A stretch of DNA of 64,000 bases from Bosea sp. Tri-49 (lineage in GTDB: Bacteria; Pseudomonadota; Alphaproteobacteria; Rhizobiales; Beijerinckiaceae), in NCBI RefSeq assembly GCF_003952665.1, contig NZ_CP017946.1, positions 3,596,001 through 3,660,000 of the forward strand, in the 5' to 3' direction. Below, one piece after another: positions 13,466 to 64,000 of this stretch (positions are counted from its first letter, which is position 1; every line of letters begins with the position of its first letter). Both the position numbers and the translations under genes were made by a program. The notes under the pieces are model-generated. The model worked only from the letters and a program-made list of their open reading frames with translations. It did not search any database and had not been told where the DNA came from.

Positions 13466-13468
13466 TAG

Positions 13469-14341: not shown

Positions 14342-14368
14342 GGCTCTCCCGGTGATTGACGTCGGATC

Positions 14369-14396: not shown

Positions 14397-14438
14397 AAAG
14401 CTGTCAAAACCATCAGCTACGGGAACGGAGACGGACCG

Positions 14439-16049: not shown

Positions 16050-16079
16050 GCCGGCGATCGCCCTTTCGACGTTCGGTGC

Positions 16080-48993: not shown

Positions 48994-50193
48994 TCAACTC
49001 GCTTCACGGACGCGTGTAGGCATGGACGGACCGGCGCTGGTCGGCTCGGACAGCGGATTGGCCTCGGGCTTCGGCGCCGGCCCGGCCCAGGGCGCGCGCT
49101 TGAACCAGCCGACCACCACCGCCGTGGCGAGGATCAGGGAAAAGCCGGCGAGGTTGAGCGCCGCGACCACGGGTTCGCTGTGTCCAGCCAGCTCGGCGGT
49201 GCTGCCGGCGAGCCGGGCGAGGACGACGCTGGCGAGGAAGGCGGCGAGCGATTGCCGGCCGATCAGGACGAGGAGATGGCCCACGCCCCTGTCGAGCCGG
49301 TCGCGCACCGGCTCGATCAGGCTCAGCACGAGATAGGCCAGAGCGAGGAAGTGCAGCGGACGCAGGAGATGCAGATTGCTCTTCTCGCTCGCGGGCAGGA
49401 CGAGATCGCGCAGCGCCTGCACCGCCGGCCAGTGTTCGAGGATGCCCCAGAAGGACAGCGGCACGGCGAACACCAGGATCGCGGCGCAGGCCAGCATCAG
49501 CCACCGGTCGCGAAGGCGCGGCGCCGGCAGCCAGCCCATCCCGAGGAAGAAGCCGATGAAGAAGATCAACTGCCAGGCGAAGGGATTGAGGAACCAGCCG
49601 GCGCCGTTCCAGGGATTGCCGGTCAGGTTGAGATCGGTCGTCCAGGTCAGCGCGTAGAGCAATCCGGACAGCGCGAAGGGCAGCATTGGTTGCAGACGGC
49701 GCAGCGCCATCATCACCGGCACCAGTGCCAGGATGACGAGATACATCGGCAGGATGTCGAGATAGTCCGGCTGCCAGGTCAGGGTGACGAGGCCGACGAT
49801 CGCCCCGGCGGGATCGGCGACGAGCGGCGCGAACTGCTTGGGCAGCTCGGCCATCCCGAAGGCATGATCCAGCAGGCCAGCGAGCGCGATCACCGCCAGC
49901 ACGAGGCCGAGCTGGACCCAGTAGACCTGCCAGATCCGGTAGGCGATACGCGCGCTGCCGAGCAGCAGGCCGCGCCGGACGAAGACGCTGCCGAAAGCAA
50001 GCGCGCTGGCAAAGCCCGAACAGAAGACGAAGAGCTCCGCCCCGGAGGAGAAACCGAAGCGGGCAGGGATGAAGGCGTTCCAGCTGTTCGCCGGCAGATG
50101 CGCCACGAAGATGATCAGCATGGTCAGCCCGCGGAAGAGATCGAGCCGTTCGTCGCGCGACCGCTTCTCGGACGTCCGGTGAGCCACACTCAT
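48994..50193 (-). CDS. OpgC-domain membrane protein (acyltransferase-3-like)
   Basis: 399 residues. About ten membrane helices; the N-terminus RDERLDLFRGLTMLIIFVAHLPANSWNAFIPARFGFSSGAELFVFCSGFASAL is diagnostic of OpgC. OpgC adds succinyl groups to periplasmic glucans in alphaproteobacteria, though many OpgC-domain proteins modify other glycans. Its start shares one base with the stop of the thiamine-diphosphate enzyme upstream (TGATG), so the two are translationally coupled, an unusual pairing. A sigma-dependent promoter candidate lies before that upstream gene. Confidence 0.89.
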   Translation of the reverse strand: MSVAHRTSEKRSRDERLDLFRGLTMLIIFVAHLPANSWNAFIPARFGFSSGAELFVFCSGFASALAFGSVFVRRGLLLGSARIAYRIWQVYWVQLGLVLAVIALAGLLDHAFGMAELPKQFAPLVADPAGAIVGLVTLTWQPDYLDILPMYLVILALVPVMMALRRLQPMLPFALSGLLYALTWTTDLNLTGNPWNGAGWFLNPFAWQLIFFIGFFLGMGWLPAPRLRDRWLMLACAAILVFAVPLSFWGILEHWPAVQALRDLVLPASEKSNLHLLRPLHFLALAYLVLSLIEPVRDRLDRGVGHLLVLIGRQSLAAFLASVVLARLAGSTAELAGHSEPVVAALNLAGFSLILATAVVVGWFKRAPWAGPAPKPEANPLSEPTSAGPSMPTRVREAS

Positions 50194-51842
50194 CAGAACG
50201 CCCCCTCGTAATCGGCGGCATCGATGCGGCAGGCGAGCACGGTGAAGCCTTCGCGCCGGAAGGCGGCCTGCGCCTCGCGCCGCAAGCCTTCGCGATCACT
50301 GACCGTGACGCCATGCCCGCCCATCGCCCGAGCGACCGCAGCGAAATCGGTCGCGCCGAAATCGACTCCGGCACGCTTCAGGCCGAGCTGACGCTGCTTC
50401 AGCGCGATCAGCCCGAGGCTTTCATCGACCAGGACGGTGATCACGACCGGCAGCTTCAGGTCGCGCAGCGTGGCGAGTTCGCCCAGCACCATCTCCAGCC
50501 CGGCATCGCCGACGAAGCACAGCACCGGCTTGCCTGAACCCAGCGCTGCGCCAGTTGCGAGCGGCAGTGCGCAGCCCATGGTGCACAGCCCGGTCGATTG
50601 CAGCAGCTGGCGCGGTCCGTCGCAGCGCCAGATCTGGCTGAGCAGGATGCGGTGCGCGCCGGAATCGGCGGTCGCGACGGTGCCGGCCGGAGCGGCTTCG
50701 CGCAGGGTCTCGAAGACCGCATGCGGCCCCCACGCGGACGGTGCGGCGAAGGCGGCGCGAAAGCGCGAGCGAAGTTCCGCCGGCTCGCCCTCCGGCCATG
50801 TTGCCTTGGCGGCCTGGCGATCGGTCAACGCATCGAGGATCGCGCCGACATCGCCTTCGAGCCGCAGCGTCGCCGCATGCACCCCGTGCGGCATGTCCTC
50901 GGCGACGATATCGATGACGCATTTCCCGTCGGGCCAGGGATTGCGCCAGCCCTGCCGCATCTCGATCGGATCATAACCGGCGAGCACGATCAGGTCGGCG
51001 GCGTCGATCAGCGGCCGGACGATCGCATCGGCTTTCGGCGACAGTCCGACGCCGCCAATGACGCGCGCGTCGTCCTCCGGCACAAGGCCCTTGGCCTTGT
51101 AGGTCGTCAGCAGGGGCGCGCCGATCCGTTGGAGACAGCGATCGAGTGCGGCGGCGCCAACCTGGTTGACGAGGTCGAGGCCGGCGATGACCAGCGGCCT
51201 CTGCGCCTGCGCCATCAGACCCCGGGCGAAACTCAGATTGGCGGGGACAGCAGGCTGCATCACCGGTGTCATCGGCGGTGTTCGCCAAGAGGTGCGCGCT
51301 TCGGCGACCGAGATCGGCAGGTCGATATGCACCGGACCGGGGCGACCGCGCCGGGCGACCGCCACGGCCTTCTCGGCCACCAGATCCTCGGTGCCCGGCG
51401 CGGCACGGAAACTCGCCTTGACCAGAGGCCGCAGCACGGCCTGATGGTCGAAGACCTGATGCGTGTAGCTCTCGGCCAGGGCCTGGTCGACGCAGCCGGT
51501 GACGAAGATCAGCGGCACGCGGTCCTGCTGGGCATTGGCGACGACGTTGACCGCGTTGGCGACGCCGGGCCCCAGAGTCGCGACCAGGACAGGCAAGGCG
51601 CCGGTCGCATGCCAGAGCCCCTCGGCCATGAAGCCGGCGGCGTTCTCGTGCTTGGCGAGCTCGAAGCGGATGCCGGCCCGCTCCAGCGCATCGACGAGGA
51701 CCAGCACTTCGCCGCCGGGAATGCCGAAGGCGTGGGTCGCGCCGGCGGCCCGTAGCCGCGCCGCCAGCAGATCGGCGCCCGTCACCATGAGCTGCGGGCT
51801 ATTACCTGCGCTTGTCTCGCTTCGCTCGAGGTCCTGCCGCAT
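50193..51842 (-). CDS. Thiamine-diphosphate-binding protein, acetolactate-synthase-like
   Basis: 549 residues from ATG at 51842, five bases after GGAGAG. The N-terminal domain has the catalytic Glu66 in AKHENAAGFMAEG, the central domain covers about 205-335, and the C-terminal domain has the cofactor motif as GDAGLEMVLGELATLRDLKLPVVITVLVDESLG, where the usual GDG and NN read GDA and DE. It is therefore a divergent paralogue, not biosynthetic IlvB, and its 2-oxo-acid substrate is unknown. It leads an operon with the OpgC-like gene, divergent from the ECF sigma gene. Confidence 0.86.
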   Translation of the reverse strand: MRQDLERSETSAGNSPQLMVTGADLLAARLRAAGATHAFGIPGGEVLVLVDALERAGIRFELAKHENAAGFMAEGLWHATGALPVLVATLGPGVANAVNVVANAQQDRVPLIFVTGCVDQALAESYTHQVFDHQAVLRPLVKASFRAAPGTEDLVAEKAVAVARRGRPGPVHIDLPISVAEARTSWRTPPMTPVMQPAVPANLSFARGLMAQAQRPLVIAGLDLVNQVGAAALDRCLQRIGAPLLTTYKAKGLVPEDDARVIGGVGLSPKADAIVRPLIDAADLIVLAGYDPIEMRQGWRNPWPDGKCVIDIVAEDMPHGVHAATLRLEGDVGAILDALTDRQAAKATWPEGEPAELRSRFRAAFAAPSAWGPHAVFETLREAAPAGTVATADSGAHRILLSQIWRCDGPRQLLQSTGLCTMGCALPLATGAALGSGKPVLCFVGDAGLEMVLGELATLRDLKLPVVITVLVDESLGLIALKQRQLGLKRAGVDFGATDFAAVARAMGGHGVTVSDREGLRREAQAAFRREGFTVLACRIDAADYEGAF

Positions 51843-51882
51843 ACACTCTCTCCGCCGGCCGCTGCAGCGGCTTGCTGACGAG

Positions 51883-51908
51883 ATCGCAATCGGAGGGGGT
51901 TTGGTTAC
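51883..51908 (-). promoter_or_regulatory. Candidate ECF sigma promoter facing the thiamine-diphosphate gene (GTAACC-N16-CGAT)
   Basis: On the minus strand GTAACC (51908-51903), 16 bases, then CGAT (51886-51883), about 40 bases before the start at 51842. This differs by one base from the perfect GTAACC-N16-CGAA at 52614-52639. Caulobacter SigF, the paradigm of sigma factors paired with NrsF, is reported to use this type of element. The site lies in the gap divergent to the sigma gene. Confidence 0.55.
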
Positions 51909-52020
51909 AGGCTCTTTGGATATGAGCCCGGCCAGGGTGCCGAAAGGCAGCGCCGGCTTGTGAGCCGGCCCGCGCCATGGCACGCATTGGCGAGTTCGTG
52001 CATCCTCGGAAAAGCAAGCC

Positions 52021-52590
52021 TTGTCGCTGGACGACCTCGAAACCGAGCTTCGGCCTATATTCCTCGCCGCGCTCGCCGGCGATGCCGCGGCCTACAAGGT
52101 CTTCCTCGATACGATCAGCACCCGTCTACGCGGTTATCTGCGCCGGCTGCTGGCGCGCACCGGCCGCAGCGAGCCGAGCGAGGCCGAGGACGTTCTGCAG
52201 GAAACGCTGCTGGCGCTGCATCTCTCCCGCCATACCTATGAGCCGTCGAGCCCGGTGACCGCCTGGGCGCATGCGATCGCGCGCTACAAGCTCGTCGACC
52301 ATCTGCGCCGAACCGGCCGCCATGCCGGGAACCTGCCGCTCGATGACGAGGTCTATCAGCTCGCAGCGCCCGAAAGCGGTGCGGCCGACGCAAGGCTCGA
52401 CCTCGAGCGCGCCATGCAGGCGCTACCGGAGCGGACGCGCCGCCTGGTCGAGCAGGTCAAGCTGCAGGGCGCGAGCGTCGCCGAGGCAGCAGGCGCTGCG
52501 GGAATGACCGAAACGGCAGCCAAGGTCGCGATCCATCGCGGCCTTCAGGCGATGGCGAAGTTCCTATCGCGGCGCGGGCGCTCGCCGTGA
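52021..52590 (+). CDS. ECF-type RNA polymerase sigma factor (SigF-like, NrsF-associated)
   Basis: 189 residues from TTG 52021; no ATG start fits. Sigma region 2 spans about 20-95 with AEDVLQETLLALHLSRHTYEP and VTAWAHAIARYKLVDHLRR; region 4 spans about 120-180 with LPERTRRLVEQVKLQGASVAEAAGAAGMTETAAKVAIHRGLQ. The following gene encodes an NrsF-type anti-sigma protein, placing this in the SigF-like group, which responds to metal and oxidative stress in Caulobacter. A 6-bp hairpin (51952-51969) precedes the start. Confidence 0.92.
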   Translation: MSLDDLETELRPIFLAALAGDAAAYKVFLDTISTRLRGYLRRLLARTGRSEPSEAEDVLQETLLALHLSRHTYEPSSPVTAWAHAIARYKLVDHLRRTGRHAGNLPLDDEVYQLAAPESGAADARLDLERAMQALPERTRRLVEQVKLQGASVAEAAGAAGMTETAAKVAIHRGLQAMAKFLSRRGRSP

Positions 52591-52613
52591 CCGGCTCGGA
52601 GATCAGCAGCAGC

Positions 52614-52639
52614 GTAACCTTTCGCCGGCTTGCGGCGAA
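52614..52639 (+). promoter_or_regulatory. Perfect GTAACC-N16-CGAA promoter before nrsF
   Basis: GTAACC at 52614-52619, 16 bases, CGAA at 52636-52639, lying between the sigma stop (52590) and the nrsF start (52673). This equals the consensus reported for SigF-type ECF sigma factors. Its position gives nrsF a promoter separate from the sigma gene, so active sigma would raise its own inhibitor. Confidence 0.72.
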
Positions 52640-52672
52640 TTCCCTTAAACCAGCCCCTGGGCGGAATTGGAC

Positions 52673-53314
52673 ATGAAGACCGACGAGTTGATCTCCCTCA
52701 TGGCCGCGAGCCACCAGCCGGTGGACACCGGCCGGCTGCGCCACGCGACCTGGCTCGCGGCGGCGGCGGCGCTCGGCGTCACCGCGACGGTGCTCGTCAA
52801 CACGCTCGGCGTACGTCCGGATCTGGCGGCTGCAATCATGACGATGCCGGTCATCGCCAAGCTGCTCTTCGGCGGCAGCATCGCCGTGATCGCCCTCATC
52901 CTGTTCCAGCAGAGCTTGCGGCCTGGGCTGCAGCCGCGGCGCTTGTTGCCTCTGGCCGCGATTCCGGCCGCGCTGATCGCCGGCTTTGCCCTGCTCACAT
53001 TAGCCCAGGCGCCAGCCGAGCAGTGGAATTCACTGATCTTCGGTCGCTATTGGCGCAGTTGCCTCGTCAACGTGCCACTCTATGCGCTGCTACCACTAGC
53101 CGTCCTTCTGCTGTTGGCCCGCCGCGGTGCACCGATCGACGGGCGCTTGACCGGCGCCTCCGCCGGGCTTGCGTCCGGTGGACTGGCTGCAGTCGCTTAT
53201 GCCTTGCATTGTCCGGACGACACGATTCCGTTCCTGGCGATCTGGTATACGCTCGCCGTTGCGCTGGTTGCCGGCGTCAGCGCACTGGCGCTTCCCCGGC
53301 TTTTGCGCTGGTGA
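52673..53314 (+). CDS. NrsF-type (DUF1109) membrane anti-sigma factor
   Basis: 213 residues from ATG 52673. After a short cytoplasmic N-terminus (MKTDELISLMAASHQPVD) six membrane helices follow, the DUF1109 pattern. Cys130 (WRSCLVNVPLYALLPL) and Cys180 (AYALHCPDDTIPFLAIWY) correspond to the two cysteines known to matter for sensing in Caulobacter NrsF. It holds the ECF sigma at the membrane until stress. A perfect sigma-type promoter lies 34 bases upstream. Confidence 0.92.
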   Translation: MKTDELISLMAASHQPVDTGRLRHATWLAAAAALGVTATVLVNTLGVRPDLAAAIMTMPVIAKLLFGGSIAVIALILFQQSLRPGLQPRRLLPLAAIPAALIAGFALLTLAQAPAEQWNSLIFGRYWRSCLVNVPLYALLPLAVLLLLARRGAPIDGRLTGASAGLASGGLAAVAYALHCPDDTIPFLAIWYTLAVALVAGVSALALPRLLRW

Positions 53315-53415: not shown

Positions 53416-54696
53416 CTACCGCCTCGTCGCCTCGAGCGTCTGCTCCAGCGCTGTGACCAGCTGGTCGGCATTCTCCCGCGAAAAGACCATCGGCGGACGG
53501 ATCTTGAGCAGGTTGCGGCCGCCGCCGGTGATGCCGACAAGGACGCCGCGCTGCATCAGGCCCTCGATCAAGGCGCGGGCCGTCTCCGGCGCGGGCGCAT
53601 ATCCGGCGCGATCCTTCACGATCTCCACACCGACGAACAGGCCGGTGCCGCGGACATCGCCGATGCGCTCGTCCTTCTCCATCAGCCCTGCGAGGCGCTG
53701 GCGCAAATAGGCTCCGACCTGAAGCGCGTTCTCCTGCAAACCCTCGTCGCGCAGCACGTCGAGAACGGCGATGCCGGCGGCGGCGACGACCTGATTGCCT
53801 CCGAAGGTGTTGAAGTAGCGTTCTGTCCTAAGGAAGCCTTCGACCAGCTCGCGGCGGGTGATGACGACGGCGAGCGGCAGCCCGTTGCCCATGGGTTTGG
53901 CCATGGTGACGATGTCAGGCACGACCCCGGCGTGCTGGAAGCCCCAGAAATGCGTGCCAGTGCGGCCGAGCGCCGACTGGACCTCGTCGGCGATGATCAA
54001 TGCGCCGGACTTGCGGACCTCGGCGATCGCTTCATCGAGGTAGCCGGCGGGCGGGCTGTAGAGACCGTCGCTGGCGAAGACCGGGCAGGCGAACAACGCC
54101 GCCGACCGGTGCCCGCGTTCGGCGAGCCCGGCGATCGCCCCGCGGTACTGCTCGGTATAGTCCGAGGCCGTCAGCTTCGGGGTCCGGTCGCCGGTGCCGC
54201 GGTGCTCGGGGGCTGGCACGGTCGCGACCCAGCCCTGCTGGCGCTCGGCGGGGATCGTCGAGGAATCGAGCGCGCCGATGATGGTCGAGTTGCCGTGGAA
54301 GGCAGAGCGGGTGATCAGCGCGCCGCTGCCCCCGGAATTGGCCATGGCGATCCGCCAGGCTAGCTCGTTCGCCTCGGTCCCCGAGCAGACGAACATGCAG
54401 ACCTTGAGCGGGTCCGGCATGGTCTCGGCGAGGCGCTCGGCATAGTCGACGATCAGCTCGCTGGGATAGCGGGTGTTGGAGTTGAAGGTCGCGAGCTGGC
54501 GGCTCGCCGCCTCGACCACCCTGGGATGGCAATGGCCGACATGCGGGACGTTGTTGTAGGCGTCGAGATAGCGCTTGCCGCTCTCATCGGTCACCCAGAC
54601 GCCCTCGCCGCGCACCGGCACGAACGGAGCCTGGTAGAATTGCTTGTACATCGGCCCGAGCAGGCGGGCGCGGCGTTCCATCAGCGTATCGTACAT
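53416..54696 (-). CDS. Class III PLP enzyme of the phospho-lyase type (5-phosphohydroxylysine / ethanolamine-phosphate phospho-lyase-like)
   Basis: 426 residues from ATG at 54696. The N-terminal YLDAYNNVPHVGHCHPRVVEA (43-63) and the lysine motif DIVTMAKPMGNGLP (Lys267) are hallmarks of the AGXT2L1/AGXT2L2 subgroup rather than ordinary omega-transaminases; Asp238 and Gln240 in ADEVQ contact the cofactor. KIRPPMVFSRENAD near the end also fits. Those enzymes eliminate phosphate and ammonia from a phosphorylated amino alcohol. The adjacent kinase-like gene (54723-55784) mirrors the animal hydroxylysine kinase and phospho-lyase pair, strengthening the call. Confidence 0.85.
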   Translation of the reverse strand: MYDTLMERRARLLGPMYKQFYQAPFVPVRGEGVWVTDESGKRYLDAYNNVPHVGHCHPRVVEAASRQLATFNSNTRYPSELIVDYAERLAETMPDPLKVCMFVCSGTEANELAWRIAMANSGGSGALITRSAFHGNSTIIGALDSSTIPAERQQGWVATVPAPEHRGTGDRTPKLTASDYTEQYRGAIAGLAERGHRSAALFACPVFASDGLYSPPAGYLDEAIAEVRKSGALIIADEVQSALGRTGTHFWGFQHAGVVPDIVTMAKPMGNGLPLAVVITRRELVEGFLRTERYFNTFGGNQVVAAAGIAVLDVLRDEGLQENALQVGAYLRQRLAGLMEKDERIGDVRGTGLFVGVEIVKDRAGYAPAPETARALIEGLMQRGVLVGITGGGRNLLKIRPPMVFSRENADQLVTALEQTLEATRR

Positions 54697-54722
54697 GGCG
54701 GGCTTCTTTCCGGGAGAGACTG

Positions 54723-55784
54723 TCAGTGATTGCCGAGGCCGGCGGCCTCGGCGAGGCGAGCGTGGAGTTCGGCCGGAGGCAGCGCGTCGCAGCGGGCGAG
54801 CGCCTCCCAGCCGAAGCGGCTGACATCGTCGCGATAGGAGGTGGTCGCGGCGGGATTGGCCTGGCGGCGCCACGAGACGATGAGCTCGCGGGTCGCGAGC
54901 CGCGCCTGAATGAGAACCGGCAGCACCGCGATCTCGCTGGCCTCGATCGGCAAGACTCGGGCATAGCCCTTTACCACCTGCGCCATCGCGCTCACCGGGT
55001 CGGCCTCGCGATAGATGAGATGCGCAGCCGCGATCGCGACCTCGGCGACGCGGATCGTCCTGATCATGTCGCCGAAATCGATGATGCCGGAGACCGCCCC
55101 GTCCTGCGGCCGCAGCAGGAGGTTGTTCTGGTTGAGGTCGTTATGGATGACCTGCCGGGGCAGCGCCGGCAGCAGCGGCACGACGCGCTCGGCAAAGCGG
55201 TCGAGCACCCGCTCCGCCAGGGCCTTGCGCTGGTCGGTATCGAGGAAGGCGATCTTCTCGCGCAGGCTGGCGAAGTGGACGAGGTCCCAGATGAAGGCCC
55301 GGTTGGCTCCGGGATGATCGAAATCGGCCAGAGCGCGATCGAGCCGGGCCGCCAGCATGCCGACCTCGACGCGCTGGGCCCGCGACAGCGTGCTGCCGAG
55401 CGCCGGCTCGCCCGGCAGATAGGTCAGGACGCGCATCAGATGGCGCCGGCCGCCACTTTCATGCGCCACGATGGTGCTGCCATCGCGTGCGGCGACCACG
55501 CGCGGCACCGGCAGGGCCGGATCGGTCCGCGCCAGATGGGTGAGCGCCGCGTTCTGGAAGGTGAGCTCCTCCGCGCTGTCGGAGTCGCCGCAGACCTTGA
55601 AGACGTAGTCCCTGCCATCCGCGCCGCGGACATGGAGGTTGAGATCGCGCTCGCCGCTGATCCGCGCGAACGAGCCGCTGATCCCGAAATGCTCGCGAAG
55701 AACCTGCGCCGGTTCATCGCCGGCGAACTGTGGTAGCGGCGCCATCAGCGCGTCGTCCAGCGCGGGCGCAGCAACGCCGCTCAC
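54723..55784 (-). CDS. Hydroxylysine kinase-like phosphotransferase (APH fold)
   Basis: 353 residues with an aminoglycoside-phosphotransferase fold: nucleotide region around RDYVFKVCGDSDSAEELTFQNAAL (Lys63), catalytic loop VIHNDLNQNNLLL (Asp216) and metal-binding IIDFGD (Asp237). RDLNLHVRG near residue 50 and the overall pattern match AGPHD1-type hydroxylysine kinases, which use GTP or ATP to phosphorylate the hydroxyl of 5-hydroxylysine. It overlaps the deacetylase gene by four bases and precedes the phospho-lyase-like gene by 26. Homoserine-kinase-like activity is the alternative. Confidence 0.85.
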   Translation of the reverse strand: MSGVAAPALDDALMAPLPQFAGDEPAQVLREHFGISGSFARISGERDLNLHVRGADGRDYVFKVCGDSDSAEELTFQNAALTHLARTDPALPVPRVVAARDGSTIVAHESGGRRHLMRVLTYLPGEPALGSTLSRAQRVEVGMLAARLDRALADFDHPGANRAFIWDLVHFASLREKIAFLDTDQRKALAERVLDRFAERVVPLLPALPRQVIHNDLNQNNLLLRPQDGAVSGIIDFGDMIRTIRVAEVAIAAAHLIYREADPVSAMAQVVKGYARVLPIEASEIAVLPVLIQARLATRELIVSWRRQANPAATTSYRDDVSRFGWEALARCDALPPAELHARLAEAAGLGNH

Positions 55785-56809
55785 GCCATCGCCTCCTGGA
55801 AGCCGGTCAGGAACGCCGCGAGATTGGTCCCCAGCACCGGCGAGGGATAACCGCCTTCCTGGATGATCACCGTCGGCCGCCGCAAGCTCGCCAGGCTCTC
55901 GCCCATGCGTTGGAAGCCTTCGGTCGTCACAGCGGTGCAGGCGAAAGGATCGGCCACCGAGGGATCGAGACCGAGCGCGATCACCAGGACATCGGGAGAG
56001 AACACCTTCGCCTGCTCGACCGCATGCCGGACGGCGGTGAGATAGACCTCGTCGTCGGCCCGCTCCGGAACCGGAAGGTTGAGGTTGAAGCCCTCGCCAG
56101 CGCCTTCACCGACCTCGTCGGCATAGCCGGCATAGAACGGGTAGACCGTCGCCGGGTCGGCATGGACGGAAATGGTCTGGACGTCGGCGCGATCATAGAA
56201 CAGCGCCTGCGTGCCATTGCCGTGGTGCACGTCAATATCGAGGATGCTGACGCGTTCGACGTGATCGCGCGCCAACGTCGCCGCCAGCGCCGTATTGTTG
56301 AGGAAGCAGTAGCCGCAGGCCTGGTCGCAATAGGCGTGATGCCCCGGCGGCCGGCACAGCGCATAGGCCGCCCGCTCGCCGTTCAGGACCCGTACCGTTG
56401 CGTCAATTGCCGTCGCGCCGCTGGCAAGGATCGCGGCCCAGCTGTCGGCGAGCAGGACGCTCGCCGCATCGGCGATGTAGTAGCCGGCCCGTCCGAGCAG
56501 GTCCTGCGGAAGGCGCCGCATATAGGCGTTGGGATGCAGGCTCGGGCGCAGTTCCTCGCTCGCCGGGAAGCGCTGCTTCCAGGCGGCGAAGCCGGTTTCG
56601 AGGAAGGCGAGATAATCGGCGTCGTGGACGCGCCGGATCAGCGCGAGGTCGGCCGGCCCCGGCGCGACCACGGCCTCGGTACAGCCCTCGGCCGCCGCGA
56701 GCAGAACGCGCGCCCGGTCCGGCACTTCCAGCGCCGTGGTGAGCGCCCCGCCCGAGAGCCGGGTGCGCACGAGATGACCGTACTGGTCAGGATGGAAGAT
56801 CGTCTTCAT
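55781..56809 (-). CDS. Histone deacetylase superfamily zinc deacetylase (acetylpolyamine amidohydrolase type)
   Basis: 342 residues, the size of bacterial acetylpolyamine amidohydrolases. The active site is complete: RPPGHHAY (His157, His158), zinc ligands Asp193 and His195 in ILDIDVHHGNGTQ, Asp282 in ALGLDPSVADPF and the transition-state Tyr321 in QEGGY. It removes an acetyl group from an amine in the cytoplasm. Sitting between a PotD-type binding protein and an amino-alcohol kinase, it probably deacetylates the imported compound first. A degenerate paralogue is at 58064. Confidence 0.93.
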   Translation of the reverse strand: MKTIFHPDQYGHLVRTRLSGGALTTALEVPDRARVLLAAAEGCTEAVVAPGPADLALIRRVHDADYLAFLETGFAAWKQRFPASEELRPSLHPNAYMRRLPQDLLGRAGYYIADAASVLLADSWAAILASGATAIDATVRVLNGERAAYALCRPPGHHAYCDQACGYCFLNNTALAATLARDHVERVSILDIDVHHGNGTQALFYDRADVQTISVHADPATVYPFYAGYADEVGEGAGEGFNLNLPVPERADDEVYLTAVRHAVEQAKVFSPDVLVIALGLDPSVADPFACTAVTTEGFQRMGESLASLRRPTVIIQEGGYPSPVLGTNLAAFLTGFQEAMA

Positions 56810-56829
56810 CTCAGGCAGTCCTCAAAGGC

Positions 56830-57882
56830 TCACTTCGCGATCAGCGCCTGGTAGCGCTCCTGCACGCTGGCGATATTGTCGGCCCACCAGGCAGGCTGGA
56901 GCGGCGCCTGGCGATCCTTGTTCTGCGGCGAGGAATTGGCCTTCGCCAGCGCCTCCGCCGAGAACTGCTTGGCTGCAAAGGCGCGCTCGTTGATCGGCCC
57001 GTAATAGGGCAGCACATCGGGGATGTTGGCCTGGATCTCGGGCGTGACCATCTGCGCGATCATGCGCTGCGCGGCGGCGGCGTTGGCGGCACCCTTGGGA
57101 ATGCCGAAGCAGCCGAAGCCGAGCAGGGCCTGGTCATAGGTGAAGTCGACCGGCGCGCCGTCGGCCAGCACGCTCGCGACCCGGCTGCCCCAGATCACGA
57201 TCATGTCGACCTCGCCATCCTTCAGCAGCTGTGCGGCCTGGGCGCCCGATTGCCAGAACACGTCGATCGAAGGCTTCAGCTTCGCCAGCGAAGCCAGGGC
57301 CCGGTCGGCGTCGAGCGGGTAGAGCTTGTCCTTGTCGACCCCATCGGCGAGGAGCGCGACCTCCATGCTCTCCTGCGGGTAGATGTGCATCGCCCGCCGG
57401 CCCGGGAACGCCTTGGGATCCCAGAAATCCTTCCAGTTGCGCGGCGGCTTGTCCTTGTACTTGTCCTTCTGCCAGGCCAGCACGGTCGAGACGTAGTTGC
57501 TGCCGATATAGGCCGTTCCGCGGGCCAGCGGCGCGATGCCGGTCGTATCGATCTTCGAATAGTCGAGCGGCTCGAACAGCCCTTCGCTCTGGCCGCGGGC
57601 GCAATCGGCCTCGCCCAGCTGTACGATATCCCAGCCCGGCTTGCCGGACTGAACCTGCACCCTGACGCTGGCGAGCCCGCTATGGCTCTCCTCGCGGACG
57701 CGCACGCCAAGCTTCTTGCCGGCCGGGTCGAACAGCGCCTTGCGGACGCTGCCCTGATACTGCCCGCCGAAGCCGGCGAAGGTGACGGATTCCTGCGCGA
57801 TGGCGACCGGCGCCGAACCGATCAGCACGGCGGCAGCGAATGCGAAGCGCGACGTCATCATGCCCGATGAAAACTGCGTCAT
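56830..57882 (-). CDS. PotD-type ABC transporter substrate-binding protein (second paralogue)
   Basis: 350 residues from ATG at 57882 after GGGGAGGAG. Signal peptide about 1-27 (FAFAAAVLIGSAPVAIAQ). It is a clear paralogue of the protein at 61713: both share VRVQVQSG-P-WD-V-LG-CARG-SEGLFEPLD, a FPGRRA segment, LLADGV-KDKLYPLD and NSSPQN near the end. It has no permease of its own nearby, so it likely feeds the channel at 58903-60641. It is followed by the deacetylase gene. A strong hairpin precedes it (57908-57949). Confidence 0.9.
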   Translation of the reverse strand: MTQFSSGMMTSRFAFAAAVLIGSAPVAIAQESVTFAGFGGQYQGSVRKALFDPAGKKLGVRVREESHSGLASVRVQVQSGKPGWDIVQLGEADCARGQSEGLFEPLDYSKIDTTGIAPLARGTAYIGSNYVSTVLAWQKDKYKDKPPRNWKDFWDPKAFPGRRAMHIYPQESMEVALLADGVDKDKLYPLDADRALASLAKLKPSIDVFWQSGAQAAQLLKDGEVDMIVIWGSRVASVLADGAPVDFTYDQALLGFGCFGIPKGAANAAAAQRMIAQMVTPEIQANIPDVLPYYGPINERAFAAKQFSAEALAKANSSPQNKDRQAPLQPAWWADNIASVQERYQALIAK

Positions 57883-57907
57883 GTTTCTTCTCCTCCCCAT
57901 GTGAAAA

Positions 57908-57949
57908 CGGCGCCGCGCACGCGGACGGGCTGTCCGCATGCCGGCGCCG
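57908..57949 (-). promoter_or_regulatory. Leader hairpin before the second binding-protein gene
   Basis: Outer arms CGGCGCCG (57908-57915 and 57942-57949), then GCA/TGC, then GCGGAC (57921-57926) with GTCCGC (57932-57937) make a roughly 17-bp interrupted stem. On the transcribed minus strand it is followed by GTTTTC, terminator-like but with a short U-tract, and then the ribosome site. It begins 26 bases before the ATG. Confidence 0.6.
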
Positions 57950-58036
57950 GTCCATCCGCTTGCTCGTGTCCATCCTTGCGGGAAGGACACCGCGAAATGC
58001 CTTGCGACGTTGATGAAAAAGGCGGGTTCGGGCCGA

Positions 58037-58055
58037 GCGCCCTAGTCGAGGGCGC
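58037..58055 (-). terminator. Hairpin after the degenerate deacetylase gene
   Basis: GCGCCC (58037-58042) pairs with GGGCGC (58050-58055) around seven bases, nine bases past the gene end at 58064. A TTTTT stretch follows on the minus strand near 58016-58020. It may partly end the importer operon before the second binding-protein gene. Confidence 0.45.
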
Positions 58056-58063
58056 GCGGCCGG

Positions 58064-58906
58064 CTAGCTGGTCTCACATGCGATCACCATGACCGGACAA
58101 TTCAGGGCGCCGGAAAGCTTGCGCGCTGCGGCGGCGGGGCCCGACAGGGCGGGGCGGTCGAACGGCGCCGTCAGCCCAGCCTCGATATCGACCACGACCG
58201 CGCCGGGCGAGAAGCGCCTGATCGCCTCGCAAGCCTCGGCCAGCGCCGCATCGGCAGCCTTTTCGTCGGCCTCGGCCCCGAGGACGAGATTGAGATTGGC
58301 GCCGGCGGCGTCCTCGCCGCCATGCTCGTCAGCATAGCCGGTATAGAAGGGATAGCGCAGGGCGGGATCGCCATGAACCGACAGGCAGAGCACATCGGCA
58401 CGCGACAGGAAGATCGACTGGGTTCCACTCGCATGGTGCTCGCCAAGGCTGAGCACCGCGACGCGCGGCAGGTTCTCGCGCAGATAGGACGCCGCGATCG
58501 CCGCATGGTTGAGGTAGCAACCATGCGCCGCACGTCCGGCATAGGCATGGCGCCCGCTGCCAGCACAGCGGATGACAACCTGCCGCTCGCCCGCCGCGAC
58601 GCGCAAGGCGCCAGCCATGACGCTTCGTGCGTCACTGAAGGCGTCCGGCCAGGTCGAGGGCGAGACCGCCGTAAGCGCATCCACGAGATAGAAGCCGGCG
58701 CGCGCCTCGATATGCGCGGGCAGGCGCATCCGGTCGCAGCCGGGATGCAGCGTCGCCTTGATCACGGCGCCCGGCTTCTCCAGTGGCGCGAAGCGCAGGA
58801 ATTCCAGATAGGAGGCTTCATGCACGCCCTGGATCGCGTACTGGCAGAGCGAGTCAAGCTCTGTCGCGTCCCTGTCGTCACGCTTCGAAACGGATCTGGC
58901 CGTCAT
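58064..58906 (-). CDS. Degenerate histone-deacetylase-like protein lacking zinc ligands
   Basis: 280 residues from ATG at 58906, coupled to the permease by ATGA. It aligns over most of its length with the deacetylase at 55781, for example VHEASYLEFL, RAGFYLVDA and SVHGDPALRYPFYTGYADEHG. Catalytic positions are lost: the His-His pair is GRHAY (Arg119), the zinc-binding Asp becomes Gly155 in SLGEHHASGTQ, the second Asp is missing in VDIEAGLTAPF, and the QEGGY tyrosine is absent. The frame is intact with normal codon use, so it is a maintained pseudoenzyme, perhaps a ligand-binding or regulatory subunit. Confidence 0.85.
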   Translation of the reverse strand: MTARSVSKRDDRDATELDSLCQYAIQGVHEASYLEFLRFAPLEKPGAVIKATLHPGCDRMRLPAHIEARAGFYLVDALTAVSPSTWPDAFSDARSVMAGALRVAAGERQVVIRCAGSGRHAYAGRAAHGCYLNHAAIAASYLRENLPRVAVLSLGEHHASGTQSIFLSRADVLCLSVHGDPALRYPFYTGYADEHGGEDAAGANLNLVLGAEADEKAADAALAEACEAIRRFSPGAVVVDIEAGLTAPFDRPALSGPAAAARKLSGALNCPVMVIACETS

Positions 58907-59724
58907 CGTGCTGCTCCCTTTTCCGGCCGCTTCGCGATCTGGACGATGAGCAGCAGCACGATCGAGGCGACGACGAGCACCGAGGAAACCGCCGCGACCA
59001 GCGGGTCGACCTGATCGCGGATGTTGGCGAACATCCGGCGCGGCAAGGTCGAGTTCTCGCCGCTGGAGATGTAGAGGGCGATCACCACCTCGTCGAAGGC
59101 GGCGACAAAGGCGAAGAGTGCTCCGGCCGCGATCGAGCTCTTGATCTGCGGCACGGTCACCGTGAGGAACGCCTTCAACCTGGTCGCGCCGAGGCTGCGC
59201 GCCGCCCGCTCCAGATTGCCGTCGAAGGATTGCAGCCCGCTCGACACCGTCACCAGCACGAAGGGCAGCGCCAGCATGATGCCAACGAGCACGAGGCCGG
59301 TGACCGTATTGTTGAGCCCGAGCTTGGCAAAGACGAAGAAGACGCCGATCGCGACCAGGATGTTCGGCACGATCATCGGCAGCAGGAAGGACATGCGCAG
59401 CGGCTTGGTCAATCGCTCCGGCATCTGCGAGAGGCCGTAAGCCGCCGCGGTCCCGATCGGCGTCGCGATCAGCGTGGTCAGCCCGCCGACCCTGAGCGAG
59501 AGCCAGAGCGCATCCATCCACTCGGCGGAGTCGAAGAACTCGCGATACCAGCGCAAGCTCCAGGCTCGCGGCGGGAACTCGAGATAGTTCGAGGCCGAGA
59601 ACGACATCGGCACGATCAGCACGCAAGGCACGATCAGGAAGGTGAAGATCAGCGCGCACAGGCTGTACAGCCAGAGCCTCTGATAGTGCCTGATCTGCGT
59701 GGCGCTGGCGGCGGCGGTCAGCAT
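58903..59724 (-). CDS. PotC-type ABC transporter permease
   Basis: 273 residues from ATG at 59724, sharing one base with the preceding permease stop. Six helices start with LWLYSLCALIFTFLIVPCVLIVPMSF; the EAA-type loop is NLERAARSLGATRLKAFLTVTVPQIKSS. YREFFDSAEWMDALWLSLRVG is typical of the PotC/spermidine-type subfamily. It overlaps the degenerate deacetylase gene, tying that protein's synthesis to the transporter. Confidence 0.92.
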   Translation of the reverse strand: MLTAAASATQIRHYQRLWLYSLCALIFTFLIVPCVLIVPMSFSASNYLEFPPRAWSLRWYREFFDSAEWMDALWLSLRVGGLTTLIATPIGTAAAYGLSQMPERLTKPLRMSFLLPMIVPNILVAIGVFFVFAKLGLNNTVTGLVLVGIMLALPFVLVTVSSGLQSFDGNLERAARSLGATRLKAFLTVTVPQIKSSIAAGALFAFVAAFDEVVIALYISSGENSTLPRRMFANIRDQVDPLVAAVSSVLVVASIVLLLIVQIAKRPEKGAAR

Positions 59725-60641
59725 CAGCGGCCCCCGTATAGCTTGTCGACGCGGAACACCTTGTTCAGCGCGGCAAGGATGGCGATGGTCACGACGAGCA
59801 GCAGCACGCCGAGCGCGCTCGCCGCGCCCCAGTTGCTGTAGGTCGAGACATTGGTGGCGATCTGCATCGACCACATGCTGACCCGTCCGCCGCCCAGCAA
59901 GGCCGGCGTCAGGTAGAAGCCGAGGCTCAGGATGAAGACGAGCACGGTGCCGGCGAAGAGGCCGGGCCGGCTGAGCGGGAAGAACACGTCCCAGAAGGCT
60001 CGCATCGGCGAGGCGCCGCAGCTCGACGCCGCCTTCAGATAATCGGTGTCGATGGTCTTCATGCTCGAATAGAGCGGCAGGATCATGAAGGGCAGCAGCA
60101 CGTGCAGCATGCCGATCGTGGTGCCGATGAAGTTGTTCACCAGCGGGATCGGCTCGTTGATGATGCCGAGGCTGATCAGCCAGCTGTTCACAAGGCCGCG
60201 TCGCTGCAGCAGCACGAGCCAGGCATAGGTTCGGACCAGCACCGAGGTCCAGAACGGCAGGATCACGAAGATCATGCAGATCGCCGCCGCCCTTGGGCTG
60301 AGCTGCGAGAGCAGATAGGCGACGGGATAGCCGAGCAGGATCGAGCCGAGCGTGACGATCCCCGCGATCTGGAAGGTCGTGACGAAGGTGATGACGTAGA
60401 CCGGCTGCGCCAGCCTTGCGTAGTTCTCGAGCGAGACACCGCCATCCTTGCCGATGAAGGAGAGGACGAAGAGCCAACCGACCGGGACGATCAGCAGGAG
60501 CCCGATGACGATGAGTCCGGGCACTGCGAGGAGTGCGAAGGACCAGGCTTCGCGCCGCTCGGCGCTGGCGAAATAGGATGCATCGGCAGTGTCTGACGAC
60601 GCCGCTGCGATCAAGCCGGTCATGGGCCGCGCCTCAGACAT
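59724..60641 (-). CDS. PotB-type ABC transporter permease
   Basis: 305 residues from ATG at 60641, which overlaps the ATPase end by eight bases; ATG at 60665 or 60623 are alternatives. The first helix is ALLAVPGLIVIGLLLIVPVGWLFVLSF and the conserved FWTSVLVRTYAWLVLLQRRGLVN segment marks the PotB family; the EAA loop is YLKAASSCGASPMRAFWDVFFPLSRPG. With the PotC-type subunit it forms a channel for polyamine-like or related cationic solutes. Confidence 0.91.
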   Translation of the reverse strand: MSEARPMTGLIAAASSDTADASYFASAERREAWSFALLAVPGLIVIGLLLIVPVGWLFVLSFIGKDGGVSLENYARLAQPVYVITFVTTFQIAGIVTLGSILLGYPVAYLLSQLSPRAAAICMIFVILPFWTSVLVRTYAWLVLLQRRGLVNSWLISLGIINEPIPLVNNFIGTTIGMLHVLLPFMILPLYSSMKTIDTDYLKAASSCGASPMRAFWDVFFPLSRPGLFAGTVLVFILSLGFYLTPALLGGGRVSMWSMQIATNVSTYSNWGAASALGVLLLVVTIAILAALNKVFRVDKLYGGR

Positions 60642-61716
60642 CGCCGCTGACCAGGATGCTGTCATTGCGGTGGACGTTGATGTGGATCGGCTGGCCCGGG
60701 GTCGGCACGAGCCCGCGATTGGCCTCCTGCGGCACCAGCCGCACCGCGATGTTCTGGCCGTCCGGGAAGCCCGCGATCACTAGCAGGCTGTCGCCCTGGA
60801 AGATCGTCTCGCGCGCCACGGCGGAAAACGAGTTGACCTCGGCCTCCGGACCGGCGACCGGCCCGATCGCCAGTTTTTCCGGCCGCAGCGCCAGCCAGCT
60901 TTCCCGCGGATTGGCCGTCGATGTTCCCGCATGATCGGGCAGGCGCAAGGGCGTGCCGAAGACGCTCGCGCCGCCGCTGCCGAGCTCGACCGGCAGGAAG
61001 GTTGTCTCCCCCACGAAATCGGCGACGAAGCGCGTCCTCGGTCGGTCGTAGATCGCGCGCGGCGTGTCGAACTGGATCAGGGCGCCGTTGTTGATCACGG
61101 CGATCCGGTCCGACATGGTTAGCGCCTCGCGCTGGTCATGCGTCACGAACACCGTCGTCGTGTGCAGGCGCTCATGCAGATGGCGCAACTCGATCTGCAT
61201 CTGCTCGCGCAGCTTCTTGTCGAGCGCCGAGAGCGATTCGTCCATCAGGAGGATGCGCGGCTCGAAGATGATGGCCCGCGCCAGAGCGACGCGCTGCTTC
61301 TGCCCGCCCGAGAGCTTGTCGACGGGACGATCGATGAACTGGCTCAGCCTGACCATGTCGAGCGCGCCGCGCACCCTGGTCTCGATCTCGCTGCGCGAGA
61401 GGCGCCGGAGCTTCAGCGGATAGGCGACGTTCTCGAACACGTTCATGTGCGGGAACAGCGCGTAGTTCTGGAAGACGAGGCCGATCTCGCGCTGATGCGG
61501 CGGCCTCGTCAGCAATTCCTCGCCCGCGACCAGGATGCTGCCGCTGGTCGGGGTGACGAAGCCGGCGAGCACCTGCAGCAGCGTGGTCTTGCCCGAGCCG
61601 GAGGGGCCGAGCAGCGTGACGAACTCGCCGGGCGCGATGTCGAGATTGATGTCCTTGAGAGCCTCGAACGAACCGAATTTCTTCGAGAGCCCCCGGATCG
61701 AAACCGGAACTTTCAT
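60634..61716 (-). CDS. PotA-type ABC transporter ATP-binding protein
   Basis: 360 residues from ATG at 61716. Walker A GPSGSGKTT, signature LSGGQKQRVALARAI, Walker B ILLMDESLSALDKKLREQM (Ser where Pro is usual, common in this subfamily) and H-loop VTHDQREALTMSDR. A C-terminal TOBE domain (about 280-360) has SWLALRPEKLAIG. Its start overlaps the stop of the binding-protein gene by four bases. Confidence 0.94.
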   Translation of the reverse strand: MKVPVSIRGLSKKFGSFEALKDINLDIAPGEFVTLLGPSGSGKTTLLQVLAGFVTPTSGSILVAGEELLTRPPHQREIGLVFQNYALFPHMNVFENVAYPLKLRRLSRSEIETRVRGALDMVRLSQFIDRPVDKLSGGQKQRVALARAIIFEPRILLMDESLSALDKKLREQMQIELRHLHERLHTTTVFVTHDQREALTMSDRIAVINNGALIQFDTPRAIYDRPRTRFVADFVGETTFLPVELGSGGASVFGTPLRLPDHAGTSTANPRESWLALRPEKLAIGPVAGPEAEVNSFSAVARETIFQGDSLLVIAGFPDGQNIAVRLVPQEANRGLVPTPGQPIHINVHRNDSILVSGDV

Positions 61717-62768
61717 TGCAGGATCGCCGACTTGAAGGCCTCTTCCGCCTTGTCGCCGTTCTTGGCCCACCAGGCTGCGTCGATCAGCACCTGCTTGGCA
61801 GCGTTTTGCGGCGAGGAGTTGGTCTTGGCGAGCTGTTCCGGCGTGAACTTGCGGACCTCATAGGCCTTGGCGTTGACCGGGCCGTAATTGTCCATCTTCT
61901 CGATGATGTTGGCCTGGATCTCGGGCGAGATCATCGCCAAAGCCAGCTCCTTCGCCTTGGCGGCATTCTTGGCGCCCTTGGGAACGGCGATGCAGCCATA
62001 GCCGAGCAGCCCCTGGTCATAGGTGAACTTGACGGCGCTGCCGTCCTCGATCACCGGTGAGACCCGGCTGCCATAGATCGCGATCAGATCGACCTCGCCA
62101 TCCTTGATCAGCTGCGTCGACTGGGCGCCCGTCGTCCAGAACACGCCGATCTGTGGCTTGAGCCGCTTGATCGCGGCAAGCGCGCGCTCGACATCGAGCG
62201 GATAGAGCTTGTCCTTCGGCACGCCGTCGGCGAGCAATGCGATCTCCAGCGTCTCCTGGGCGAGACCGGCGATGGCGCGGCGACCCGGAAACGCCTTGAC
62301 GTCCCAGAAATCGGCCCAGGATTTCGGCGGCTGCTTCACCTTGTCGGTGCGCCAGGCCAGGACCACGGAATAATAATTGGTCGCGACCCAGCTCTTGCCG
62401 CGCGCCGCGGCCGGGATCGAGGCATCGTCGAGCTTCGAGAGGTCGAGCGGTTCGAACAGCCCCTCGCTCTCGCCGCGAGCGCATTCGTCGCCGCCGAGAT
62501 GCACGAGATCCCAGGCGGGCGCTCCGGACTGGACCTGCACCCGGATCGAAGGCAGGTCACCATGCGTCTCGCTGCGGATCTTGAGGCTGAGTTTCTGTGC
62601 GGCGGGATTGACCAGCGCCGCATCGAAGCCCTTGCGCATGGCGCCGCCATAGCCGGCTACAGTCACGGTCTCCTGCGCGATCGCGGCAGCGGGAAGCATT
62701 GCGGAAATCGCCACACCGACGATCATGGCGATCTGTCGGCGCCTTGCGCTGTCTGTCCTGTCGGTCAT
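61713..62768 (-). CDS. PotD-type ABC transporter substrate-binding protein (first paralogue)
   Basis: 351 residues from ATG at 62768, with GAGGGG seven bases before. A long signal peptide, about 1-35, ends AAAIAQ. Mature features: VTVAGYGGAMRKGFDAALVNPAA, WDLVHLGGDECARGESEGLFEPLD and GLLGYGCIAVPKGAKNAA. It opens the operon binding protein-ATPase-permease-permease-degenerate deacetylase. The polyamine-type fold and neighbouring deacetylases suggest an acetylated amine ligand. Its leader contains a promoter and a terminator-like hairpin. Confidence 0.91.
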   Translation of the reverse strand: MTDRTDSARRRQIAMIVGVAISAMLPAAAIAQETVTVAGYGGAMRKGFDAALVNPAAQKLSLKIRSETHGDLPSIRVQVQSGAPAWDLVHLGGDECARGESEGLFEPLDLSKLDDASIPAAARGKSWVATNYYSVVLAWRTDKVKQPPKSWADFWDVKAFPGRRAIAGLAQETLEIALLADGVPKDKLYPLDVERALAAIKRLKPQIGVFWTTGAQSTQLIKDGEVDLIAIYGSRVSPVIEDGSAVKFTYDQGLLGYGCIAVPKGAKNAAKAKELALAMISPEIQANIIEKMDNYGPVNAKAYEVRKFTPEQLAKTNSSPQNAAKQVLIDAAWWAKNGDKAEEAFKSAILQ

Positions 62769-63053: not shown

Positions 63054-63380
63054 ATGTCGGATGTCAGGACAGTGTTGGTGAGCGGCTACTCAGCCGCCCC
63101 AAAAGGCACCAGCATGTTCGAGGAGTTCAAGCACGCCGGCGTGGTGCTCGAGATCGACCCGGCGACGAACGTCATCGTGGCGGTCGACGCCACCTTCGTC
63201 ACCCAGCTCGCACGCTCGTTCTACTCGCGGCTGATCGTCGGCTACGACGTCAGCAACGGCATGGCGCCGCTGGAGCGGTTGATCTCCACGGCCGTGCACA
63301 CGCCGTCGCGCGAGGCGCTGATCGTCGCCACGCGCGCCGCCGTGCAGCGCTATTTCCAGATCCGCGACAATCGCGGCTGA
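63054..63380 (+). CDS. DUF3870 domain-containing protein
   Basis: 108 residues: VLVSGYSAAPKGTSMFEEFKHAGVVLEIDPATNVIVAVDATFVTQLARSF followed by LIVGYDVSNGMAPLERLI and a C-terminal helix ALIVATRAAVQRYFQIR. This matches DUF3870, a small cytoplasmic family of unknown function often located beside amino-acid and amine catabolic genes. It is divergent from the importer operon and converges on the class III aminotransferase, so it shares their control region. Confidence 0.88.
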   Translation: MSDVRTVLVSGYSAAPKGTSMFEEFKHAGVVLEIDPATNVIVAVDATFVTQLARSFYSRLIVGYDVSNGMAPLERLISTAVHTPSREALIVATRAAVQRYFQIRDNRG

Positions 63381-63401: not shown

Positions 63402-64000
63402 TCAGGCGGCCTTATCCAGCGCAATGCCCTTCGTCGTCAGCAGATCGAGCCCGAGGTCGAGCGCTTTGGTGAAGCGGTCGACGGCATCGTCGATGCCCTC
63501 GGGCGTGATGATCAGCGGAGGCGTCATGATCAGGGTATCGCCGAGCGCCCGCACGATCAGGCCGTTCTCGAAGGCGAGACGCTGGATCTCCAGGCCGAAC
63601 TTCAGCGAGGGCTCGAAGGCCTGCCGCGTCGCCTTGGAGCGGACGAGCTCGATTCCCCACATCAGGCCGACGCCGCGGACCTCGCCGACGAGCGGATGGT
63701 CGAGCAAGGCCTTGAGGCGCCCTTCCAGCTGGGCGCCCAACACCTGGGCGCCGGCGATCAGCCCGCGCTCCTCGTAGAGCGTCAACGCCTCCAGGCCGAC
63801 CGCACAGGCGATTGGGTGGCCGCCATAGGTATAGCCATGGCCGAAGACGCCGATCTTGTCGCCCTGCTCCTTCATCGCCTGATAGATCGGCTCCGACAGC
63901 AGCAAGGCCGAGAGCGGCTGATAGGCCGCGGTCAGCGCTTTGGCGCTGCTGATCATGTCCGGCTTGAGGTCATAGGTCTGCGAACCCCACCAGTTGCCGG
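63402..64000 (-). CDS. Class III aminotransferase, N-terminus beyond right edge
   Basis: The open frame from 64000 to 63402 encodes about 199 C-terminal residues. NWWGSQTYDLKPDMISSAKALTAAYQPLSA contains the Schiff-base lysine, and VFGHGYTYGGHPIACAVGLEAL and GEVRGVGLMWGIELV are standard for omega-transaminases. This is a conventional transaminase pattern, unlike the KPMGNG phospho-lyase type at 53416. It would use an amine or beta-amino acid with pyruvate or 2-oxoglutarate; proximity to the PotD-type cluster suggests a role in the same amine pathway. Confidence 0.9.
   Translation of the reverse strand, partial: GNWWGSQTYDLKPDMISSAKALTAAYQPLSALLLSEPIYQAMKEQGDKIGVFGHGYTYGGHPIACAVGLEALTLYEERGLIAGAQVLGAQLEGRLKALLDHPLVGEVRGVGLMWGIELVRSKATRQAFEPSLKFGLEIQRLAFENGLIVRALGDTLIMTPPLIITPEGIDDAVDRFTKALDLGLDLLTTKGIALDKAA

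Follow-up and report, generated by a model that had tools for sequence, protein, structure and literature searches.

Gene organization of the cluster

A cluster of nine genes, all on the minus strand, occupies positions 53416–62768 of a 64,000-nucleotide stretch of the genome of the soil bacterium Bosea sp. Tri-49 (contig NZ_CP017946.1, positions 3,596,001 to 3,660,000; hereafter the window). In the order of transcription, the cluster encodes solute-binding protein 1, an ATP-binding cassette (ABC) transporter ATPase, two permeases, a degenerate deacetylase, solute-binding protein 2, a deacetylase of the acetylpolyamine amidohydrolase (APAH) type with intact catalytic residues, a kinase, and a class III pyridoxal phosphate (PLP) enzyme. 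An earlier note on this DNA gave the same span and described the importer, intact deacetylase, kinase, and PLP enzyme as lying on one strand with overlaps or short gaps. All of them were found so arranged, save for one gap. The APAH and kinase genes overlap by 4 nt, as do the second permease and degenerate deacetylase genes, and short gaps separate the kinase from the PLP enzyme (26 nt) and binding protein 2 from the APAH (20 nt). The single long junction, a gap of 181 nt, separates binding protein 2 from the degenerate deacetylase gene; all the others are overlaps or short gaps. A scan for promoters and terminators returned 0 and 3 sites, respectively, against 0.6 and 5.0 in shuffled sequences.

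Binding proteins 1 (61713–62768) and 2 (56830–57882) both match PF13416. The ATPase (60634–61716) barely clears the potA cut-off (TIGR01187, 359.1 vs 355.6 bits). The PotB-like (59724–60623) and PotC-like (58903–59724) permeases match PF00528 and score below the cut-offs of PRK09497 (173.9 vs 348 bits) and PRK09500 (145.2 vs 326 bits), respectively. For the ATPase and permease genes, the starts given are those annotated for their homologues in Bosea sp. F3-2; starts set by hand lay a few codons off. The importer had been called PotD-type, a label that appears to hold at the superfamily level only. A potA-subfamily ATPase is common to the cluster and the PotABCD spermidine/putrescine importer, whereas both binding proteins reach only about 39 bits against the PotD equivalog cut-off of 582 and thus fall outside that family. 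They are closer to MotA and to agropine- and GABA (gamma-aminobutyrate)-sensor-type proteins.

The two binding proteins are 53% identical to each other. All trees in this work (PLP enzyme, APAH, degenerate deacetylase, binding proteins, and kinase) were built from hand-picked rows by quick searches without bootstrap. In the binding protein tree, both group in one clade with their homologues from the Mesorhizobium and Shinella clusters, which have one each, with no resolved branching between 1 and 2. They look like a duplication within the Bosea lineage.

The nine-gene order recurs unchanged in five other copies from the Bosea lineage (L031, L032, L034, L111, and the Bosea sp. F3-2 plasmid pB32-1), six with the window, which is more than chance. 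A chance neighbourhood as the sole reading was ruled out by this kept gene order together with the recurring linkage between the kinase-PLP pair and an APAH. On pB32-1, the PLP gene is followed on its outer flank by transposase genes. The degenerate deacetylase was found at 89–100% identity in 4 of 61 genomes of the genus; the cluster is therefore an accessory island. No published description of the cluster was found in the open-licence literature, which was the literature searched.

The PLP enzyme belongs to the phospho-lyase clade by sequence

The PLP enzyme (53416–54696) carries the motifs VGHCHP (inside YNNVPHVGHCHP) and KPMGNG. Among proteins of solved structure, a bacterial phospholyase (5g4i, E 9e-104) comes closest, then human ETNPPL (6tor, E 1e-95), and the next one follows at E 1e-51. 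The PLP tree comprised 53 rows: the window, 39 loci hand-picked from 90, two solved proteins, and 11 transaminases from near such loci. The 42 phospho-lyase-type rows split from the 11 transaminase rows in one change with an SH-like approximate likelihood ratio (SH-aLRT) support of 100, and the window enzyme is on the phospho-lyase side. At 25 of 25 positions that are conserved in the phospho-lyase set and rare in transaminases (for example N48, N49, R76, F295, N296, and K398), the window enzyme has the phospho-lyase letter. Eleven of these positions are the same in 42 of 42 phospho-lyase rows. By its sequence, the enzyme is a member of the phospho-lyase clade. A true transaminase at this position was ruled out by the tree split and the diagnostic residues.

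The window enzyme falls into a subclade of eight members (support 99), here called type A, which joins 5g4i with a support of 85. The bacterial phospholyase 5g4i/5g4j, its best solved relative, sits on a long branch (1.38) and, unlike the window enzyme, has no known link to a deacetylase. The branch of human ETNPPL (AGXT2L1) lies apart from all bacterial rows, so that the tree makes no decision on the substrate.

The kinase and the kinase-PLP pair

The kinase (54723–55784; PF01636) has an APH fold with an HxDxxxxN motif and a DFGD-type metal site, and H214, D216, N221, and D236 are invariant in 28 relatives. It scores 273.8 bits against the kinase part of PRK06148 and 67.1 bits against homoserine kinase; the latter was accordingly rejected as the nearest family. 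Among the matches listed, its homologues are frequently annotated as hydroxylysine kinase. PRK06148 and PRK06149 are fused kinase/M23/aminotransferase proteins. The window kinase matches one end of these proteins and the PLP enzyme the other, whereas in the window the two are separate genes and score well under the cut-offs set for the full-length proteins.

Of 884 matches to the kinase, 120 were listed, and the 80 related stretches retained out of 293 gave 79 loci. The kinase is followed by the PLP enzyme on the same strand in all 79; since the loci were fetched by the kinase, this count is silent on lone PLP enzymes, and the loci are not independent of each other. In L115, kinase and PLP enzyme form a single open frame of 792 residues. 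The window genome holds a single kinase copy at E 1e-10. Several expectations of the earlier note were thus borne out: both PLP motifs, a phospho-lyase-like rather than transaminase-like enzyme, a kinase resembling the hydroxylysine type rather than homoserine kinase, and the two lying side by side.

The window kinase and seven partners form a clade (support 99) with the same eight members as the PLP subclade. Of 32 other kinases, 30 carry a C-terminal Y[IL]LRN stretch, which the window kinase lacks. In its place, six of the eight type A kinases have TTSYR[DN]D[VI]S, the L115 kinase has SPYRVDIS, and the L116 kinase has neither. Y[IL]LRN is a feature of this data set and not a published definition of hydroxylysine kinase; we read its replacement as a sign of a different substrate. 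Together, the kinase and PLP enzyme represent their own bacterial subfamily, apart from the main family.

The active deacetylase recurs beside the pair

The APAH (55781–56809; PF00850, 235.6 bits) keeps the His/His/Asp/His/Asp/Tyr set, the zinc ligands, and the RPPGHH and EGGY motifs, and its best solved relatives are APAHs. It shares fold, catalytic residues, and both motifs with the acetylpolyamine amidohydrolases of Mycoplana ramosa and Pseudomonas. A deacylase survey (PMC11532494) connects RPPGHH and EGGY with acetyl rather than longer acyl groups. Glu106 in the L2 loop gives polyamine selectivity in the Mycoplana enzyme; it is not universal, and the Pseudomonas enzyme has His there. In contrast to the Mycoplana enzyme, the window APAH is linked to a kinase and a phospho-lyase, and the Glu106 equivalent is Leu in the window and in 8 of 8 type A copies, so that the polyamine-selectivity residue is lost.

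An APAH gene lies within 14 of the 79 kinase-PLP loci (about 21 kb each), four of type A and ten of a second type, B. About 1% of loci would be expected to hold one, given genomes of about 5–6 Mb that each have 1 to 5 matches to the family, mostly 2; the 79 loci are, however, not independent. In the APAH tree, types A and B fall into two distinct clades, from which it follows that APAH and the kinase-PLP pair probably came together at least twice.

Most type B clusters hold a Dpp-type importer and a thiamine pyrophosphate (TPP) enzyme, plus an M20-family hydrolase, a GntR regulator, or an aldehyde dehydrogenase. Type B loci L067, L046, L066, L077, L087, and L118 are from Bosea, Microvirga, and Chelatococcus, and the TPP enzyme was not found in L118. 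The Chelatococcus type B cluster adjoins ectoine-degradation genes, which suggested 3-hydroxy-diaminobutyrate as a candidate substrate. In Pectobacterium (L105) and Rouxiella (L103), the pair stands beside gabT, a short-chain dehydrogenase/reductase gene, and a Pot-type importer, and in Pectobacterium a succinate-semialdehyde dehydrogenase (SSADH) gene is present as well. This gabT-side setting suggests a GABA-related amino alcohol, and the gabT and SSADH genes adjoining the Pectobacterium pair suggested 4-amino-3-hydroxybutyrate as a candidate.

A plasmid of Comamonadaceae carries two APAH genes near its kinase-PLP pair (L126:2798-3838 and 6823-7851), both with the catalytic motifs. The window genome has a second APAH (G000:C1:3222773-3223336, L114) with type B affinity in the tree; no kinase-PLP pair was found within the stretch fetched around it.

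The island extends beyond the window

The earlier note ended the cluster at 62768, which stops short, and missed both the transaminase and the coenzyme A (CoA) genes that follow. A class III transaminase of the PRK06105 type starts beyond the window edge, and its C-terminal part lies at 63402–64000 on the minus strand (homologue 705 bits, cut-off 517). Past the right edge, there is a divergent run encoding a 3-hydroxy-3-methylglutaryl (HMG)-CoA-lyase-like protein, two enoyl-CoA hydratases, a CaiB-type CoA transferase, and an AMP-forming ligase. The same run contains a FabK/nitronate-monooxygenase-like protein, a TTT-type binding protein, and an SSADH-like aldehyde dehydrogenase. The coordinates of this acyl-CoA module are L110:6196-14975, and its contexts were drawn from plasmids.

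In Mesorhizobium (L033), where the APAH and PLP enzyme are 60% and 80% identical to those of the window, genes for the HMG-CoA-lyase-like protein, an enoyl-CoA hydratase, the CaiB-type transferase, a second hydratase, the ligase, and the FabK-like protein come directly after the kinase-PLP pair and share its strand; the importer and APAH genes diverge from them in this independent layout. The CoA module of L115 (genome G325) surrounds the fused kinase-PLP gene. In each of its three lineages, the type A pair is linked to acyl-CoA genes, among them one for an HMG-CoA-lyase-like protein.

This linkage bears on the substrate that had been proposed. In the specific route offered by the earlier note, which also allowed for a similar amino alcohol, acetylated 5-hydroxylysine would be taken up, deacetylated, phosphorylated, and converted by the phospho-lyase to 2-aminoadipate semialdehyde. 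Such a hydroxylysine kinase/ammoniophospholyase pathway (AGPHD1, AGXT2L1, and AGXT2L2) was reportedly described in animals by Veiga-da-Cunha in 2012. The animal system has in common with the window an APH-fold kinase followed by a class III PLP phospho-lyase and the sequence clade of the PLP enzyme; it differs in that the window pair is a separate bacterial subfamily whose neighbours are the CoA module, transaminase, deacetylase, and importer. The clade of the PLP enzyme would suit hydroxylysine, and annotation sources often name the kinase homologues accordingly, although a name is no test. However, both proteins belong to a subfamily distinct from the main one, the kinase is without Y[IL]LRN, and the linked genes encode a CoA ligase, a CoA transferase, enoyl-CoA hydratases, and the HMG-CoA-lyase-like protein. 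The 2-aminoadipate route is not known to need such CoA genes. We therefore consider hydroxylysine as the substrate, and 2-aminoadipate semialdehyde as the product, very improbable.

The GGCP motif of HMG-CoA lyase holds the catalytic Cys. All seven cluster copies of the HMG-CoA-lyase-like protein have GGHP instead, plus a 4-residue insertion, so its substrate is probably other than HMG-CoA. One cluster copy nevertheless clears the NCBIfam subfamily cut-off (273 vs 246 bits). At E 1e-70, the protein was found in 1 of 385 genomes of the class, the window's own. A canonical HMG-CoA lyase, and hence a 3-methylglutaconate skeleton, was weakened as a candidate by GGHP in 7 of 7 copies.

Proposed pathway

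With the gene content, gene order, and their conservation as observed, we lean towards the cluster being a catabolic route for an N-acylated, most likely N-acetylated, amine bearing a 1,2-amino alcohol. The reaction order, acyl group, substrate, and every activity in this proposal are predicted from sequence. The ABC importer with its two alternative binding proteins would take up the compound, and the APAH would strip the acyl group. The kinase would phosphorylate the hydroxyl adjoining the freed amine, and the PLP enzyme would eliminate phosphate and ammonia to give an aldehyde. The linked aldehyde dehydrogenase and transaminase would convert the remaining ends to a carboxylic acid. The acid may then be turned into a CoA thioester and cleaved by the enoyl-CoA-hydratase/HMG-CoA-lyase-like module outside the window.

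The clade and residues of the PLP enzyme, the 79 of 79 pairing, and the presence of APAHs from two clades in 14 of 79 loci make deacetylation, phosphorylation, and phospho-elimination a good reading of these genes. The general idea of an acylated hydroxy-amine route in the earlier note is plausible, with an APAH recurring beside the pair, while hydroxylysine itself gained no specific support. Hydroxyputrescine and hydroxycadaverine were considered as candidate substrates, as were acyl groups larger than acetyl. Kinase plus phospho-lyase and APAHs are each already known; what appears new is the combination of the kinase-phospho-lyase pair with a deacetylase, a CoA module, and a kept pseudo-deacetylase.

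Several observations weigh against this proposal. The 181-nt gap before binding protein 2 leaves room for a second promoter, and no aldehyde dehydrogenase gene lies within 53416–62768. The APAH has lost the Glu106 equivalent, as described above. In 65 of the 79 loci, the pair stands without an APAH nearby and so has other uses. A plasmid of Shinella sp. PSBB067 shows the reversed order, with the PLP gene before the phosphotransferase. In Gemmobacter and in a Paracoccaceae plasmid, the CoA module was seen with neither APAH nor kinase-PLP pair in view. Two Shinella plasmids carry the importer (51–59% identical), APAH (55–56%), transaminase (69%), CoA module, and aldehyde dehydrogenase (70–71%), with an extra GMC oxidoreductase, and no kinase-PLP pair in the 25 kb seen; one of the two has such a PLP gene elsewhere. 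The pair would accordingly be dispensable for the core pathway or placed on a side branch.

The Shinella islands fit a different account, in which deacetylation, transamination, and oxidation alone degrade a polyamine or omega-amino acid and the kinase-PLP pair serves for detoxification or salvage of a hydroxylated side product. The SSADH-like aldehyde dehydrogenase and PRK06105-type transaminase suit such an amine oxidation. However, in Bosea, the pair closes the operon right after the APAH with a 4-nt overlap, and in Mesorhizobium, it heads the same-strand run of CoA genes. We regard this account as possible but rather doubtful.

The CoA module allows a further division of labour. The APAH may free an amine, to be handled by the kinase-PLP pair and the transaminase, together with a non-acetyl organic acid for the CoA ligase/CoA transferase module. 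The module is tightly linked to the APAH and the pair in Bosea and Mesorhizobium, and the changed GGCP motif in 7 of 7 HMG-CoA-lyase-like copies makes an unusual acid likely. On the other hand, the module is also found without an APAH in view, and the window APAH has RPPGHH and EGGY, which the deacylase survey associates with acetyl rather than longer acyl groups (PMC11532494). Release of a non-acetyl acid is therefore unlikely in our judgment.

A conserved pseudo-deacetylase

The degenerate deacetylase (58064–58906; PF00850, 104 bits) is shortened at both ends and apparently inactive. The earlier note hinted at it only through the word intact for the other copy and left it undescribed. We compared 15 full-length copies, the window and P0121–P0134, leaving out the 220-residue piece P0135. 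D195 is changed to G, D284 to E, and H158 to R, and Tyr323 is lost (Mycoplana numbering), in 15 of 15 copies, although the Asp284 column is alignment-dependent and gapped in another alignment. The changes affect two of the three zinc ligands as well as an active-site His and the Tyr, and the site is not intact. His159, His197, and the L2-loop Glu106 are retained in 15 of 15. As a clade with the type A APAHs, the pseudo-deacetylase was neither rejected (approximately unbiased test, p-AU 0.435) nor shown, and its branch is very long.

Truncation at both ends and the missing catalytic residues are what a merely decaying gene would display, and the gene is absent from the Mesorhizobium and Shinella clusters. 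However, the frame is open over 279–280 codons in all 15 full-length copies, down to 58% identity, and two His and the L2-loop Glu are invariant. The mean ratio of nonsynonymous to synonymous substitution rates (dN/dS), over 15 pairs of six copies, was 0.161 for the pseudo-deacetylase, below the 0.207 of the kinase, and 0.093 for the APAH. By these measures, the gene is under purifying selection and kept, and simple decay is quite improbable. Its absence from the Mesorhizobium and Shinella clusters indicates that the pseudo-deacetylase is an addition of the Bosea lineage, as the second binding protein also appears to be.

The deacylase survey (PMC11532494) describes bacterial polyamine deacetylases as head-to-head dimers; Glu106 of the Mycoplana enzyme works in trans across the dimer. 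All 15 pseudo-deacetylases keep Glu106, and all 8 type A APAHs carry Leu at that site; it is conceivable, if speculative, that the two proteins form a heterodimer. The pseudo-deacetylase would lend the lost L2-loop Glu across the interface, and the heterodimer would serve an undescribed N-acylated amino-alcohol pathway, supplying the phospho-lyase and a CoA module whose HMG-CoA-lyase-like protein would have a new specificity. It is without the N-terminal L1 lid loop, which, as a guess, would open the pocket for a larger substrate. In human HDAC10, according to the same survey (PMC11532494), an active deacetylase domain is joined to a pseudo-deacetylase domain, and the proposed heterodimer would be its two-gene bacterial counterpart. 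Both systems bring together an active deacetylase of the polyamine type and an inactive member of the family, whereas the bacterial pair consists of two separate genes, the inactive one truncated.

Other genes around the cluster

A small conserved neighbouring gene (63054–63380, plus strand) is assigned to DUF3870 by the annotation of its Bosea F3-2 homologue. Just past the PLP gene, on the opposite strand, an extracytoplasmic function (ECF)-type sigma factor is paired with a probable anti-sigma factor, judged by sequence only (52021–53314, plus strand). An acetolactate-synthase-like TPP enzyme (50193–51983, minus strand) scores under all listed NCBIfam cut-offs, and the type B clusters hold a different TPP family. 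The region 2845–20812, mostly on the plus strand, is apparently catabolic, with an MlrC-like protein and, by inspection of the sequence, a saccharopine-dehydrogenase-like gene and Dpp-type transporter genes.

Implications

If the proposed pathway is true, a recurrent bacterial gene pair often annotated as hydroxylysine kinase would find its place in a testable pathway that also comprises uptake, deacetylation, transamination, and CoA steps. The pair would then comprise subfamilies with different partners, so that a blanket annotation as hydroxylysine kinase would be unsafe. The conserved, apparently inactive deacetylase next to an active one would offer a simple bacterial model of how a pseudo-deacetylase may shape its partner, a question that also applies to HDAC10.

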